This document shows, piece by piece, positions 5,001-12,255 of a DNA stretch of 64,000 nt (within the stretch, counting starts at the first letter, position 1; each line of letters starts with the position of its first letter). The position numbers and the translations under genes are program-made. Under the pieces are notes generated by a model. It worked only from the letters and a program-made list of their open reading frames with translations, was not told where the DNA came from and made no database searches. The DNA comes from Chlorobium sp. (lineage in GTDB: Bacteria > Bacteroidota > Chlorobiia > Chlorobiales > Chlorobiaceae): the NCBI GenBank assembly GCA_005862225.1, contig SZXV01000005.1:62001-126000 (forward strand). The letters run 5' to 3'.

Positions 5001-6023
5001 ATGATCGTCTATAAGGGTATCCGAAAAGCCGCCGTAAAATATCAGCAAGAGGTTGCTTGCTGGATATTATTGATGTTTTTTGCGATATGTTCTCAACCTC
5101 TGTCTTCATTATCCGCAACTCCACTTAAAAAAGCGTCACTTATTCTTCTCTGGAGCCCGCAGTCTCAATTTGCCGGCTATTATGTTGCCCTCGAAAAAGG
5201 GATTTACCAACGGCATGGTATTGATTTGACAATACTCAAAGGTGGGCCAGGAGTGTCGCCTGTGCTTGCTTTACAACAAGGCGATGCTGATTTTGCTGTG
5301 CTTTGGCTGACAACAGCTTTCGGACATCGCGTGAATGGCAAGAGACTCGTCAATGTTGCTCAAATTATTCAGAGATCGTCAATGATGCTGATTTCCAAAA
5401 AAACAAGCGGAATCAGAACAATTAACGATATGAATGGGAAGAAGGTTGGCCTTTGGCAGGGAGATTTATCCATTCCACCACATACTTTATTTGACAAATA
5501 CGGTATTAGTGTTCGGGAGATTCCCCAGTCAAATACGGTAAACCTTTTTTTGCGAGGAGGAATTGATGTGACCTCTGCAATGTGGTACAACGAATACCAT
5601 GTTCTTCTTAATTCAGGCGTTGATGCCGATGAGTTAAATACCATTTTTCTTCAGGAGCAGGGTATGACTTTTCCGGAAGATGGTCTGTATACTCTTGAAA
5701 AAACAGTTCAAAAAGATCCTGCTCTGGTTGATGGCTTTGTCCGTGCATCACTTGAAGGATGGCAATATGCATTTGCTCATCCTGATGAGGCTCTTGACAT
5801 CGTCATAAAGAACATGCGTCAGGCTCAGGTTCCTGCCAACCGGACACATCAGAAGTGGATGCTTGAGCGGATGAAAGATCTGACAGTATCGGATAAAAAT
5901 GAGTTTGGTACTCTGAAGCCGCAGGATTATGAAGCCGTTGGGAAGATTATGCGAAATCAAGGGCGGATCAAAAGTTATCCTGACTATGCAACATTTACCT
6001 GGAGGTCTGATGCCAGGAAGTAA
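5001..6023 (+). CDS. NMT1/THI5-type periplasmic substrate-binding protein
   Basis: ABC-type binding protein of the NMT1/THI5-like class (nitrate, sulfonate, taurine, pyrimidine precursors). After a basic N-terminus and a hydrophobic signal segment (WILLMFFAICSQPLSSLSA), the mature part begins with ASLILLWSPQSQFAGYYVA and KGIYQRHGIDLTILKGGPG, typical of this fold. TTG 4971 could extend the frame by ten codons, but AAGGGG lies 11 bases before ATG 5001, which is preferred. No matching permease or ATPase adjoins it. Its 3' end overlaps the next gene, a transmembrane sensor phosphatase, by 14 bases, so I infer it delivers a ligand signal rather than cargo. The ligand is unknown. Confidence 0.8.
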   Translation: MIVYKGIRKAAVKYQQEVACWILLMFFAICSQPLSSLSATPLKKASLILLWSPQSQFAGYYVALEKGIYQRHGIDLTILKGGPGVSPVLALQQGDADFAVLWLTTAFGHRVNGKRLVNVAQIIQRSSMMLISKKTSGIRTINDMNGKKVGLWQGDLSIPPHTLFDKYGISVREIPQSNTVNLFLRGGIDVTSAMWYNEYHVLLNSGVDADELNTIFLQEQGMTFPEDGLYTLEKTVQKDPALVDGFVRASLEGWQYAFAHPDEALDIVIKNMRQAQVPANRTHQKWMLERMKDLTVSDKNEFGTLKPQDYEAVGKIMRNQGRIKSYPDYATFTWRSDARK

Positions 6024-7950
6024 AAGTATTGTTACACGACTGATTCTTGTTATTACCTTGAGCAGCTCTCTTATTTTTGCTCTGACGCTGGGGTATAACT
6101 ATTACCAATCCAGAATTATTCTTGAAAAGGAGCTTGAAAATAACGCACGCAATCTTGCCATGTCGTTGGTCAATAAAGTTGAGAGTGAGCTTGTTTCTGT
6201 TTCTAAAGTGACGGAAGGAGTTGCACGCTCACTTGAGACCGGTCGATATTCGGAGCAGGAGCTTCATTCATTGATCAGAAATACTGTTGCAGGCAATGCC
6301 GGGATATACGGTTCTTGTGTTGCCTATGAACCATACGCTTTCAGCCGGACGAATCGTCTCTATGCTCCATATTATTACAGAGAAAACGGAACAATAAAGT
6401 TGATTCGTCTTGAAACTTCTTATAAAAATCTTCCATATCTCTACTGGGACTGGTACCAGATTCCTCGGGAATTGGGAAAATCTGAATGGAGTGAGCCCTA
6501 TTATGATGAGGGTGGAGGTAATACTCTTATGTCGACATGTTCCGTTCCCTTTTACGAAGAGCATGGAGGTGTAAGACGTCTTAAAGGGATTGTCGGAGCC
6601 GATATCACTCTTGATTCATTGACCGAGCTTGTTTCATCTGTCAAGATTCTCAAGACTGGATATGCAGCGCTTCTTTCTCGCAATGGTATGATTCTGGCTC
6701 ATCCCTTGAAGGGCGCTATCATGAATGAAACCTTTTTCAGTATTGCTGAATCGCGTCAGGAAGCTTCTCTCAGGGAAATTGGAAAGAGGATGATCAGGGG
6801 GGAATCCGGATTTGTTTTTTACAGGAGCCTGGTTGGAGTCAGAAGCTGGATGTATTATGCTCCGATACTTACAACGGGATGGACTCTTGCTGTTGTTTTT
6901 CCCGAAAGTGAATTACTCGAACATGTCAGGACGCTGAGTATGACAATGGCGGTAATGGGATTTGGAGGTATTCTTCTTCTGACGATTGCTGTGGTCTCTC
7001 TTGCCCGCTCCATCACCAAACCCCTTCGATCGCTTGTTGCGGCCACGAAGTTGATGGGTTCAGGCAATTTCGATGTCGAACTTCCTGCAGTCATTTCGAA
7101 TGATGAAGTTGGGGTGTTGACGAACTCTTTTCGTCTCATGGTTACTTCGCTTAAGGAGTATATCAAAAATCTGACTGAGACGACAGCCGCCAAGGAGAGA
7201 ATCCAGAGTGAGCTCAAGGTGGCTACTGATATTCAGGCCAGCCTGTTACCTCGACTTTTTCCTGCTTTTCCAGATCGACCCGAGTTTGATATTTATGCTT
7301 CTATGGATCCTGCAAAAGAGGTTGGTGGAGACTTTTATGATTTCTTTTTTATTGACCATCACAATCTTTGTTTTCTGATCGCTGATGTGGCCGACAAAGG
7401 TGTGCCGGCAGCGCTCTATATGATGGTGGCAAAAACGCTGCTGAAATCGGAGGGTCAGCGTCTCGGAGAGCCGGATCTTATTCTTTCGTACGTGAACAAC
7501 ATTCTTGCTACAGACAACGACAGTTGCATGTTTGCCACCGTATTCTGTGCCATTCTTGATACCAGAACAGGTGAGGTACGTTTTGCTAACGCTGGCCATA
7601 ATCCACCATTGATCATGACATCTGCAGGCATACAGTATCTTGCTGTTCAGTCAGGTTTTGTGCTTGGCCCTATACAGGATATCGTCTATAAAACTGAAAG
7701 CATTACACTGCAGGCTGGAGATACTCTTTTTCTTTATACTGATGGTGTGACTGAAGCAAAGAATCCTGGGGAAGAGCTTTATGGTGAGTCAAGATTGCTT
7801 CATGCACTCCAATGCGCACCAAAAGAGGAGCTTTGCGATTTGATCCATTATATCCGTTCTGAAGTCCGGGCACATGCACATGGCGCTCCTCAGTCTGATG
7901 ATGTTACCATGGTCGCCCTGAAATATCGCGGAACTGTTGCTGATGCTTGA
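6010..7950 (+). CDS. Membrane dCache-HAMP-PP2C (RsbU/SpoIIE-type) phosphatase
   Basis: Predicted transmembrane sensor whose cytoplasmic PP2C domain dephosphorylates a STAS anti-sigma antagonist. Order: TM1 (about 12-32), a long Cache-like periplasmic domain (about 35-300), TM2 (about 310-332), HAMP (SITKPLRSLVAATKLMGSGN onward), a helical linker, then the phosphatase. All expected metal-binding Asp motifs remain: GGDFYD, IADVADKG, YTDGVTEA and SDDVTMV. ATG 6010 is chosen over the longer frame from 5929 because GGAGG at 6001-6005 is correctly spaced. The likely target is the STAS protein at 11497-11835 of the same gene run. Confidence 0.88.
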   Translation: MPGSKSIVTRLILVITLSSSLIFALTLGYNYYQSRIILEKELENNARNLAMSLVNKVESELVSVSKVTEGVARSLETGRYSEQELHSLIRNTVAGNAGIYGSCVAYEPYAFSRTNRLYAPYYYRENGTIKLIRLETSYKNLPYLYWDWYQIPRELGKSEWSEPYYDEGGGNTLMSTCSVPFYEEHGGVRRLKGIVGADITLDSLTELVSSVKILKTGYAALLSRNGMILAHPLKGAIMNETFFSIAESRQEASLREIGKRMIRGESGFVFYRSLVGVRSWMYYAPILTTGWTLAVVFPESELLEHVRTLSMTMAVMGFGGILLLTIAVVSLARSITKPLRSLVAATKLMGSGNFDVELPAVISNDEVGVLTNSFRLMVTSLKEYIKNLTETTAAKERIQSELKVATDIQASLLPRLFPAFPDRPEFDIYASMDPAKEVGGDFYDFFFIDHHNLCFLIADVADKGVPAALYMMVAKTLLKSEGQRLGEPDLILSYVNNILATDNDSCMFATVFCAILDTRTGEVRFANAGHNPPLIMTSAGIQYLAVQSGFVLGPIQDIVYKTESITLQAGDTLFLYTDGVTEAKNPGEELYGESRLLHALQCAPKEELCDLIHYIRSEVRAHAHGAPQSDDVTMVALKYRGTVADA

Positions 7951-8013
7951 TACAGGAATTGATTTCTGAGAGAGGAGCTTATTTGCTTACTAACCAAGTA
8001 ATTCAAAATAGTA

Positions 8014-10356
8014 ATGAACAAAAAGTTACTTGTTGTCTTTTCATGGCTGCTTCTGGTCAGGGTGTTTACTGTTTTCATCTGTGAGAATTCTGTAACCGGA
8101 TTGCCCCCAGTCAAACATGCAATATGTACTCTTGCTACTCTTTTTTCTGCAGACGCTGTCGCTTCAACAACGCAAGGGAAGAAAATTGCATCTGTAGATG
8201 ATTTGAAAGATAAGCGGATTGGTGTGCTTCTTGGCTCTGTTCACGATTCTTATGCCATGAAAACATTTCCCAATGCAACAATTCTGCAATATAAAACGCC
8301 ATCGGATATTGTTTTGGCTGTCAAGACGGGAAAGGTTGATGCGGCCATTTACACGTATGAGACTCTTCGTGATATTTTTCGAACGAATGATGACTTGGCA
8401 ATTTTAGGATCGCCTTTGTTTTCTGTGCCGGTAGGTATTGGTTTTAACAAAACCAATAATCAGTTACGAGAACAATTCAATGATTTTTTAAGGCAGATAA
8501 AAAAGAATGGCATTTATGATAACATGATAAATCGCTGGATTATACAAGGTGATACATCAATGCCTGAGATAAAGAATTCAAAAGCTAATGGCGTTCTTAC
8601 TGTTGGTATTGTCAGTGATAAAGGGCTGCCTTTTCTGATTATCAAGGATAATAAGCTCATTGGATTAGATGCGGAACTTGCAGAACGATTTGCTGCATAT
8701 CTTGGGAAAGAACTCAAAATGAGTGATATGGAGTTTGGCAGTCTTATTCCTGCTGTTGTATCACAAAAAATTGATATGATTTCCAGTACATTGATGATCA
8801 CTGATGAACGCAAAAAACAAATCAGTTTTTCGGACGAATACTACAATTTACGAGCAAGTTTCTTTGCGTTGAAAAAGAATATTGTAATCTCATCAGCTCC
8901 AAAAAGCAATAAATTTTCATCTCTTGAAGATCTTAAAAACAAGCGGTTTGCTGTTTTTACTGGAACAGTTCATGATGGGTTTGTTTCTCGAAAATATCCA
9001 AATGCTCAATTGATGAGGTATGAAAGTACTGCCGATATGGTTTTGGCACTCGAAAGTAATAAAGTTGATGTTGCTCTTCTTGATGTTATTACTGCCGGAG
9101 TTATCATAAAGCACAACCCGGAGCTGGGCATTTTACAGGAAGATGTGCTCAATATGCCTCTTGGAGTTGGTTTTGGCAAAAATGCTGATGATCTTCGGCA
9201 GCGATTCAACAATTTTCTGCAAGCAATACGAGGCGATGGAACCTATGATGACATGTACAAGCGCTGGTGCCGTGGAGATCCTGAACAGGTTGTTATGCCA
9301 GAGATTGCGAATGGTACCGGTCAAAAGTATGTACTTGGTGTTTCTGTAGATGATCTTCCTTATGTCGCATTCATGAATGGAAAATATGTTGGTTTTGATA
9401 TTGAATTGTTAAAGCGTTTTGCCGCCAGAGAAAATATTAATCTGGATATTGTCCCGATGGAATTCGCGTCTCTTGTTCCGGCGCTGGCGTCCGGGAAAGT
9501 TGATATCATTACTGATGGCATTGCTATATCTGAAGAGCGTAGTCGTATGGTTGATTTTTCAGCTTCTTATATGGAATTTCGTACAGCCGCGATGGCAATG
9601 AAGTCAAAAATTGCCCGTTATGATAATCAGCCTGTTTCTGAAATTGCTTCTGGCGGTTTTATTGAGAATACCATAGAGAGTTTTCGTCGCAATATTATTC
9701 TTGAGGAGCGCTGGCGAATTATTCTTGACGGTCTGAAAACGACAGTGTTGATTTCTGTTCTGTCCACGCTTTTTGGCACGCTTCTTGGTTCGCTTGTCTG
9801 TTTTATGCGCATGTCAAAAAACGTGATGCTGAGTCTGCCAGCGAAGTTGTTTATCTCGATATTGCGAGGCACGCCAGTGCTGGTGTTTTTAATGCTGATT
9901 TTTTATGTTGTTTTTGCATCAGTCAATATTGATCCTGTTCTTGTAGCCGTCATAGCCTTTGGAATGAATTTTGCGGCTTATGTTGCTGAGATATTCCGCA
10001 CCGGCATCACGAGTATCGATAAAGGCCAGAGCGAGGCAGGCATTTCGCTTGGCTTCAGCAAGGTGCGAACGTTTCTCTACATTATTCTGCCCCAGACCAT
10101 TCAGCGGATCCTTCCTGTCTACAAGGGAGAGTTTATTTCACTGGTCAAGATGACTTCGATTGTCGGATACATTGCTGTGCAGGACTTGACGAAGGCAAGT
10201 GATATTATTCGGAGTCGCACCTTTGACGCCTTCTTCCCCTTGATTATGGTCGCAATTTTATACTTCATCATTTCATGGGTTCTGATGTTGTCACTTGAGT
10301 ACCTTGAGCGGAAAACCGATCCAAAATCCAAAAGAAAACAGGCGGTCATCGCATGA
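8014..10356 (+). CDS. Amino-acid ABC transporter: binding-protein lobes fused to permease
   Basis: A 780-residue fusion. After one or two hydrophobic N-terminal segments (4-23, 36-50) come four family-3 binding-protein pieces: a lobe-2-like unit (57-180), a lobe-1 unit (194-290), a second lobe-2 unit (300-430) and a second lobe-1 unit (438-535). The two lobe-2 units are clear repeats ([20 protein letters not shown] and [20 protein letters not shown]). The last part (555-765) is a HisM/GlnP-type permease with a [19 protein letters not shown] membrane segment and an EAA loop ([20 protein letters not shown]). The middle pair forms a complete binding protein; the outer halves could form a permuted one. 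The ATPase gene overlaps its 3' end by 4 bases. The substrate is probably an amino acid, unproven. Confidence 0.85.
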
Positions 10357-11450
10357 TAAAGATAGAGCATTTGTCGAAAAAGTTTGGTGATCTTGTTGTT
10401 CTGCGAGATGTCACCATAGAAATCAAATCAGGGGAAGTGATTTCCATTATAGGGCCGTCGGGTACCGGAAAGAGCACGTTTTTGCGTTGCATCAATCTGC
10501 TTGATCGTCCGAGCGGGGGAGCGATTCATATTGACGGGGTCAATATTCTTGATCCGAAGGCGGATGTTTCAAAAATCCGTCAGAAGATGAATATGGTTTT
10601 TCAGTCATTTAACCTGTTTGCGCATTTGTCGGTGATGGAAAATCTGACGATCGGGCCAGTGAAACTTCTCGGGCTGAGTCGTTCGGATGCCGAACGCAAG
10701 TCACGAGATCTTCTGAAGCTGGTAGGTCTTGCCGAGAAGGCGGGCAGTTATCCTGATGAACTGTCTGGGGGTCAGAAACAGCGCGTAGCGATTGCCCGTT
10801 GCATGGCGATGGAGCCTCGTATCATTCTGTTTGATGAGCCGACCTCAGCCCTTGATCCCACCATGGTGAGTGAGGTGTTGTCGGTCATACGCCGTCTGGC
10901 GAAAGATGGGATGACGATGGCGATCGTGACGCATGAAATGGACTTTGCGCGAGATGTGTCGAACCGAGTGCTCTATATGGACGAGGGGTGTATTTATGAA
11001 GAGGGTACGCCGGAGGAGATATTTGAGCGTCCTCAGAAAGAGAAGACACGAGCGTTTATTAACCGGATAAGAAGTTTCCATTATCATATCGGGACGCCGG
11101 ATTATGATTTGTATGGGATGAATGCAGAGATTGAGATGTTCTGCGAGAAACAGATTCTGCCGATGAAAACGAGACAGAATTTACTGTTGATTGTTGAAGA
11201 GATGCTTCAGCTCTACACACCGTGGCTTCGCACGGCGCATCTTGATATGACGATATCATACTCGGAAAAGAAAGAGAGTCTGGAGGTTGTTTTTGAAAGC
11301 AGCGGCAGTGCGTTGAATCTGTTTGACAATGCTCAGTTGCCCGACGAATTGGGGCTGACCATCATCAAGAGTCTGACAGAAAGCATAGATTACCAGCGAT
11401 TGGGCGACAAAAACCGGTTACTGCTGATTTTGAAAAAGATGGTAAAATAG
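10353..11450 (+). CDS. GlnQ-like ABC ATPase with C-terminal RsbW-like domain
   Basis: Residues 1 to about 240 form a polar-amino-acid ABC ATPase: Walker [10 protein letters not shown] (34-42), Q-loop VFQSFNLF, signature [10 protein letters not shown], Walker B IILFDEP and the switch VTHEMDF. Such ATPases normally end there. This one continues to residue 365 with a segment resembling a GHKL/HATPase of RsbW type: [12 protein letters not shown] matches the N-box, [16 protein letters not shown] the G2 region. The N-box Asn is Gln-like and the DxGxP box is replaced by [10 protein letters not shown], so ATP binding there looks lost. It overlaps the permease gene by 4 bases (ATGA). I infer a docking domain for the STAS protein encoded next. 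Confidence 0.85.
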
Positions 11451-11496
11451 CATCGGGAAGAGACAAATATTATATAAGCAACCAAACAAGGTCAAG

Positions 11497-11835
11497 ATGA
11501 ATATTCAGACAAGCAAAGAGTCGTCGGCGATGGTAGTCAAGGTAACGGGTCGTTTGGATGCTGTCACGGCTCCGGAATATGAACAACAGTTTACCGCGTT
11601 GATAACGGGAGGGGAGACAAGATTTGTGGTCGATTTTGAAAAGCTTGATTACATCAGTAGTGCGGGATTAAGAGTTCTGCTTGCGATGGCAAAGCAAATC
11701 AAAGCAAAGAGTGGACAAATTCATTTGGCCAATATAGGGGGTGCCGTCAGGGAGGTGTTCGATATTTCAGGGTTTGGATCAATATTTCCGATGCACGAAT
11801 CGGTGATCAGTGCATTGAATGCAACGGCAGGTTAA
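11497..11835 (+). CDS. STAS-domain anti-sigma factor antagonist
   Basis: A 112-residue single STAS domain of the SpoIIAA/RsbV class. The phospho-acceptor loop is intact (LDYISSAGLRVLLAM, Ser54/Ser55). Such proteins are phosphorylated by an RsbW-type kinase and dephosphorylated by a PP2C phosphatase; in the unphosphorylated form they bind the kinase and release its other partner. All of these parts are encoded in the surrounding run: PP2C at 6010-7950, kinase immediately after, and an RsbW-like domain on the ABC ATPase 46 bases upstream. It joins the next gene with no intervening base. Confidence 0.92.
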   Translation: MNIQTSKESSAMVVKVTGRLDAVTAPEYEQQFTALITGGETRFVVDFEKLDYISSAGLRVLLAMAKQIKAKSGQIHLANIGGAVREVFDISGFGSIFPMHESVISALNATAG

Positions 11836-12255
11836 ATGGTTACGCCGTTTCATACTTTAACCTGTGCTGCCAATGTCGGGCAATTAAGAGAAATTGCTGA
11901 ATTTGTAGACGAATGTGCCGAACGTTTTGGGCTAGATGTTAAAAGAACGTTTGGCCTGCAAGTTGCCGTTGAGGAGGCATTTGTAAATATTTGCAGTTAT
12001 GCCTATCCAGAAGGTAATGGTGAGGTTATTATAGCTGCCGGAGCAGAAGGCGACTCGCTTGTACTTGAAATATCTGATAATGGCACACCTTTTAACGTCT
12101 TGAAGCTTCCTGACCCCGATACGACACTGGATATAACGAACCGGGATATTGGTGGTTTGGGTGGCTATTTTATTCGCCGATTGACTGATAATGTTTGTTA
12201 CAGAAGAGAAAATGGGCAGAATATTTTGACATTATTACTACAGCGAACCTCATAA
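11836..12255 (+). CDS. RsbW/SpoIIAB-type anti-sigma serine kinase
   Basis: A 139-residue stand-alone GHKL kinase. The N-box VEEAFVNICSYAYP (Asn51), G1 box ISDNGTPFN (81-87) and glycine-rich G2 loop IGGLGGYFIRRLTD are all intact, so it should bind ATP and phosphorylate the STAS protein encoded directly upstream (adjacent codons, almost certainly translationally coupled). No sigma factor gene lies nearby, so its second partner is either encoded elsewhere or absent. Last gene of the 5001-12255 run. Confidence 0.92.
   Translation: MVTPFHTLTCAANVGQLREIAEFVDECAERFGLDVKRTFGLQVAVEEAFVNICSYAYPEGNGEVIIAAGAEGDSLVLEISDNGTPFNVLKLPDPDTTLDITNRDIGGLGGYFIRRLTDNVCYRRENGQNILTLLLQRTS

Follow-up and report, generated by a model that had tools for sequence, protein, structure and literature searches.

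A polar amino acid ABC importer encoded with a phosphatase, a STAS protein and an RsbW kinase carries a pseudo-RsbW tail on its ATPase and is a candidate output of a partner switch

We analyzed a 64,000-nucleotide stretch of a Chlorobium sp. contig (SZXV01000005.1; the window), from a Chlorobiaceae genome of 2.5 Mb, in which positions 5001-12255 are taken up by six + strand genes that overlap or are separated by small gaps. In order, they encode an NMT1 binding protein, a dCache-HAMP-PP2C phosphatase, a fusion of substrate-binding domains to a permease, a GlnQ-type ATP-binding cassette (ABC) ATPase with a tail, a STAS protein and an RsbW kinase. The tail is a pseudo-kinase of the RsbW class, and we put the chances at about even that the operon is a partner-switching circuit with the ABC importer itself as its output. 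An earlier reading of the window, made from the letters alone (the sequence-only reading), had described six same-strand genes with these domains, and gene calls, Pfam, NCBIfam and intact motifs bear this layout out:

5001..6023, + strand: NMT1/SsuA-type periplasmic binding protein (Pfam NMT1, 1e-39)
5929..7950, + strand: dCache-HAMP-PP2C (SpoIIE/RsbU-type) membrane sensor phosphatase (Pfam, acidic motifs)
8014..10356, + strand: SBP_bac_3 domains (three stretches) fused to a HisM/GlnP-type permease (Pfam BPD_transp_1, NCBIfam)
10353-11450, + strand: ATPase gene, 365 residues, GlnQ-type core plus tail (Pfam ABC_tran and HATPase_c_2)
10353..11066, + strand: GlnQ-type ABC ATPase core (NCBIfam GlnQ, 5.5e-90)
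11067..11447, + strand: RsbW/SpoIIAB-fold tail of the ATPase, putative STAS docking domain (profile, AlphaFold2, Foldseek)
11497..11835, + strand: single-domain STAS protein, anti-anti-sigma-type, RsbV/SpoIIAA-like (Pfam STAS, 3e-20; TIGR00377)
11836..12255, + strand: RsbW-type serine kinase (Pfam HATPase_c_2, 1e-27)

The tail comprises the last 127 residues of the ATPase (residues 239-365). On its own it matches Pfam HATPase_c_2 with an E value of 1.1e-4, under the gathering score, and 32 of 68 homologous tails match this model at an E value of 0.01 or better. Aligning the tail profile with the profile of the operon RsbW family using hhalign gave an E value of 1.5e-11 over 114 columns, and an AlphaFold2 model of the tail (68 tails) had a predicted local distance difference test score (pLDDT) of 91.5 and a predicted template modeling score (pTM) of 0.86. 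When this model was compared with the PDB using Foldseek, all 18 best matches were UsfX, SpoIIAB and RsbW chains, all of them anti-sigma kinases (E value of 1.3e-6 to UsfX; template modeling scores of about 0.55-0.77), and these 18 chains were solved in complex with STAS or sigma partners. When solved structures were searched by sequence using the tail profile, there was no real match, such that the link to known structures came through the fold search only. The RsbW-like tail of the sequence-only reading, whose proposal hung on the RsbW fold being there, was thus recovered by hhalign, AlphaFold2 and Foldseek, with the refinement that its ATP-binding residues are lost: neither the N-box Asn nor the G1 Asp is kept in the tail of any of 90 homologs (0/90). 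We therefore ruled out the tail as an active kinase; it has the GHKL anti-sigma kinase fold and is a relative of the kinase family rather than a working kinase. Since the tail lacks the nucleotide-binding Asn and Asp, docking rather than kinase activity is its likely role, and loss of the ATP site in 90/90 tails is what would be expected for a docking-only relative of the operon kinase.

As judged from their sequences, the parts of a partner switch are all present, namely, a SpoIIE/RsbU-type PP2C phosphatase, a STAS protein with a putative phosphoserine and an RsbW kinase with an intact ATP site. The phosphatase matches MCP-like_PDC_1/dCache_1, HAMP and SpoIIE (2e-50) in Pfam, has the four acidic motifs and is the only SpoIIE phosphatase found in a search of the host genome. 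The STAS protein scores above the TIGR00377 cut-off and carries an ISSAGLR motif that is conserved in its relatives, with the candidate serine at 54/55; of the three STAS proteins of the genome, it alone is RsbV-like, and the others are a SulP protein and a divergent protein in a 212-amino-acid frame. In the kinase, the N-box and G-boxes are intact, and the N-box Asn and G1 Asp are invariant in 15 homologs. The ATPase core likewise has intact Walker A, LSGGQ, Walker B and H-loop motifs, and SBP_bac_3 domains, a HEQRo-type permease and a GlnQ-type ATPase place the transporter, by its domains, among the PAAT-type polar amino acid ABC importers. The NMT1 gene is better read as going with the phosphatase than with the transporter, as it lies immediately upstream of the PP2C gene in 32 of 35 related loci with enough sequence, including loci where the transporter is absent. 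Since NMT1 accompanies the phosphatase and not the transporter, it is probably the ligand-binding partner of the sensor phosphatase rather than a transporter part.

In the circuit that we propose, NMT1 and the dCache domain would read a periplasmic ligand and so control the PP2C phosphatase, which would remove phosphate from the STAS protein, with the RsbW kinase putting it back. The dephosphorylated STAS protein would bind the dead RsbW-like tail and alter how active the importer is or how it assembles, and phosphorylation would release it from the tail. The effect on transport, its sign and the ligands are what we infer here.

Partner switches of this type usually act on sigma factors, and the sequence-only reading had seen none nearby. 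This was borne out: none is encoded in the operon, and a Sigma70_r2 search of the host genome found no sigma-B/F-type (group-3) factor, the proteins with this domain being one primary and three ECF (extracytoplasmic function)-type factors (open frames read by eye). A sigma-factor target was rejected on this absence. Pfam and NCBIfam do call the STAS and RsbW proteins anti-sigma-type, as an ordinary sigma-factor partner switch lying beside the transporter by chance would have it, but the small set of sigma factors speaks against such a switch and the tail would be left unexplained, making it highly improbable. Given that there is no sigma-B/F-type factor and that the operon supplies the sole SpoIIE phosphatase and the sole RsbV-like STAS protein, a sigma target is unlikely and the tail is the nearest candidate. 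The transporter is thus a credible, albeit unproved, target of the switch.

The tail ATPase was found in Chlorobiota, Thermodesulfobacteriota, Pseudomonadota (Methylobacter, Methylovulum, Nitrosomonas communis, Nitrotoga and Methylotenera), Bacteroidota and one Nitrospira metagenome-assembled genome, and a tail search of plasmids found none. The relatives in Methylobacter, Nitrosomonas and Methylovulum include cultured organisms. In type A loci, switch genes flank the tail ATPase and the transporter lies between PP2C and STAS, an order that recurs in Chlorobiaceae, Geobacteraceae/Desulfuromonadaceae, Methylococcaceae, Nitrosomonas and Nitrotoga. The order of all six genes is repeated in relatives from Chlorobiaceae, Geobacteraceae and Methylococcaceae. 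The RsbW-type gene of Methylobacter, Nitrosomonas and Nitrotoga is instead convergent and downstream. In type B loci, the tail ATPase is accompanied only by the binding protein and the permease. On the ATPase-core tree, each half contains both types, with about a dozen changes between them. We tentatively suggest, at somewhat short of even chances, that these importers form a widespread class gated by a full phosphorelay, in which dephosphorylated STAS protein on the pseudo-RsbW domain would let an extracellular signal switch transport without transcription.

No intact tail-less ATPase, which would have told against the transporter as target, was found beside operon-type STAS and RsbW genes; intact ATPases adjacent to them always carry the tail. 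One ATPase gene (L115:1326-1715, - strand) has an in-frame internal deletion, so that its first 96 residues run directly into the second half of the tail; it sits in a switch operon whose contig ends on the phosphatase side, and a full tail ATPase is present elsewhere in the same genome (G244). In Methylophilales (L066:4574-8965 and L077), a hybrid histidine kinase and an HD-domain response regulator are encoded after the tail ATPase; the kinase has an SBP_bac_3 sensor, as typed in L066. A hybrid histidine kinase near type B loci was considered as the partner of the tail and dropped, as its presence was too inconsistent.

Modeling of a STAS-tail complex, which the sequence-only reading had called for, was possible because the ATPase and STAS genes share a frame in L035 and seven other loci. 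A tail-linker-STAS chain was made by reading the ATPase stop as a residue, a modeling device that implies no claim of read-through. AlphaFold2 predicted this chain with a pLDDT of 91 and a pTM of 0.79, the linker being disordered (pLDDT of about 49). Since two freely moving domains of such size would give a pTM of about 0.5 (our own estimate), the relative placement of tail and STAS is predicted with confidence, as judged from the pLDDT and pTM scores of the chain and not from its interface. Docking of the STAS protein on the tail is accordingly a prediction of the model. The tail also evolves more slowly beside the switch genes, the median tail/core branch-length ratio being 1.83 in type A and 2.65 in type B (one-sided P = 0.0095), and its G2-box-like Gly-Leu is retained in switch loci and frequently lost elsewhere. 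In the co-occurrence check across genomes that the sequence-only reading had proposed, PP2C and tail were found together above expectation in two further orders (5/0/2/144, P = 3e-8; 9/10/7/115, P = 1.4e-5; counts that take no account of kinship), including genomes where the two are unlinked.

The following findings weigh against the importer as the output of the switch. No switch genes lie near the ATPase at 51 of the 81 loci of the tree, and type B tails are nonetheless under purifying selection (ratio of nonsynonymous to synonymous substitution rates, 0.1-0.25). A partial mirror-tree comparison of tail and STAS, given the ATPase core, detected no co-divergence (partial r = -0.11, P = 0.85). 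Neither a SpoIIE phosphatase nor an operon-type STAS protein was found in seven Chlorobi genomes with the tail (G141, G165, G201, G260, G291, G032 and G272). Conversely, no tail ATPase was found in cassette genomes G579, G477, G596, G544 and G536, and since Geobacterales have cassettes without a tail ATPase, the STAS protein there has another target.

These findings bear on a second explanation, in which the tail serves this ATPase subfamily as an integral structural or dimerization domain, descended from an RsbW-like protein but now free of partner switching, the switch genes hit another target, and a coupling of signal and nutrient is the only reason for the shared operon. The loci and selection on tails without switch genes, the cassettes without a tail and the negative mirror-tree result all favor it. 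The slower evolution of the tail beside the cassette and the confident predicted tail-STAS arrangement argue against it, as does the fact that distant lineages place the transporter between PP2C and STAS, though transporter-less cassettes exist, and on balance we consider a purely structural tail rather unlikely. Nevertheless, since the tail is conserved in genomes without PP2C or operon-type STAS, it also has a cassette-independent function, perhaps ATPase dimer stability or the binding of a divergent STAS protein. Genomes with a tail and no cassette could not be called STAS-free, a status that we rejected because 8 of 8 hold a SulP protein and a divergent STAS protein in a frame of 200-260 residues. 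The tail might instead pair with the divergent Chlorobi STAS protein. One such conserved protein (L127:2180-2815; open frame of 212 amino acids) has a charged stretch at its C terminus, and frames of comparable length also encode STAS proteins in tail-ATPase genomes without the switch cassette.

Cassettes that lack the transporter have the order NMT1-PP2C-STAS-RsbW, or the pairs swapped, in L116, L137, L145, L147, L150 and L152; L135 lacks an adjacent RsbW gene, and L146 has the same order on a contig that ends near NMT1. In G244, G297 and G301, cassette and tail ATPase lie at separate places in one genome. Cassettes without a tail imply a further output of STAS or RsbW, as would be needed if the importer were a sensor whose tail catches and frees the STAS protein with the transport cycle, thereby reporting nutrient flux to RsbW and some output. 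The genome does encode a second RsbW-like protein (at C12), a possible alternative partner. However, no output protein is encoded nearby, the RsbV-like STAS protein is single and a sigma-B/F-type factor is lacking, so that we regard a sensor role of the importer as quite improbable. The proposal of the sequence-only reading that the transporter is the switch target stands in part: the RsbW fold of the tail, the lack of intact tail-less ATPases beside the operon-type STAS and RsbW genes and the missing sigma-B/F-type factor support it, while tails without cassettes, cassettes without tails and the undetectable co-divergence do not.

Control of an ABC ATPase by a STAS protein has a precedent in MlaFB of Escherichia coli, in which MlaB is bound to the ATPase MlaF and phospho-control of MlaB has been suggested (PMC7367683). 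As in MlaFB, a STAS protein would act on a transporter ATPase with involvement of a C-terminal extension of the ATPase, here as predicted. In contrast to the operon, Mla moves phospholipids, the MlaF extension is short (about 25 residues) and lacks an RsbW domain, and a kinase and phosphatase dedicated to the system have not been described, whereas the operon STAS protein would bind a fused pseudo-RsbW domain. In the SiaABCD system of Pseudomonas aeruginosa, a PP2C sensor phosphatase, a kinase and the STAS-like SiaC make up a partner switch with a non-sigma target (PMC7647112). This switch acts on a diguanylate cyclase, with Thr68 as the phospho-residue, whereas the candidate target here is a transporter, and the match of the operon PP2C to the SiaA model scores well under the model cut-off. 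The tail, RsbW and STAS share the folds of SpoIIAB/SpoIIAA and RsbW/RsbV in Bacillus and of UsfX/RsfB in Mycobacterium, but there is no sigma-F/B partner, and the tail, fused to an ATPase, has lost its own ATP site. ABC importers are controlled post-translationally via their ATPases by MetN- and ModC-type C-terminal regulatory domains and by PII on Nrt/Urt (PMC10710835); those domains bind substrate and PII binds the ATPase, whereas the operon would use a STAS protein on a pseudo-RsbW tail. A search of this 2023 review, on transporter control, for STAS proteins, partner switches and anti-sigma factors gave no entry, and several STAS-only proteins have unknown targets according to another review (PMC8256260). 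In the literature that our searches covered, we found no RsbW/HATPase_c_2 domain fused to an ABC ATPase and no description of importer control by a partner switch of the kind proposed for the operon. If the importer is the output, a nutrient importer would be a new output class for partner switching, serine phosphorylation of a STAS protein by a phosphatase/kinase pair would be a new input among the few post-translational transporter controls, and the operon would be a test case for the control of ABC ATPases by STAS phosphorylation, which was put forward for MlaB without being settled (PMC7367683).

Two further observations concern the switch genes. A second PP2C type (about 716 amino acids) lies near the tail ATPase in three Geobacterales genomes (L155:6454-8604, L156:2285-4435 and L157:3505-5655). 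In Geobacter sp. UBA6151, a 716-residue frame (L138:8516-10666) resembles an operon-type STAS protein over roughly its first 30-46 residues and then changes into a different sequence, possibly through an insertion into the STAS gene.

In GlnPQ-like tandem permeases, several binding domains are fused to a polar amino acid permease and the GlnQ ATPase is separate; the operon transporter differs in its half-lobe arrangement and its ATPase tail. The apparent lobe order within 8014-10356 is C, N, C, N and then the permease, corresponding to half, full and half binding proteins. Relatives of this fusion range from about 240 to 1254 residues, and in some of them the lobes are on separate genes.

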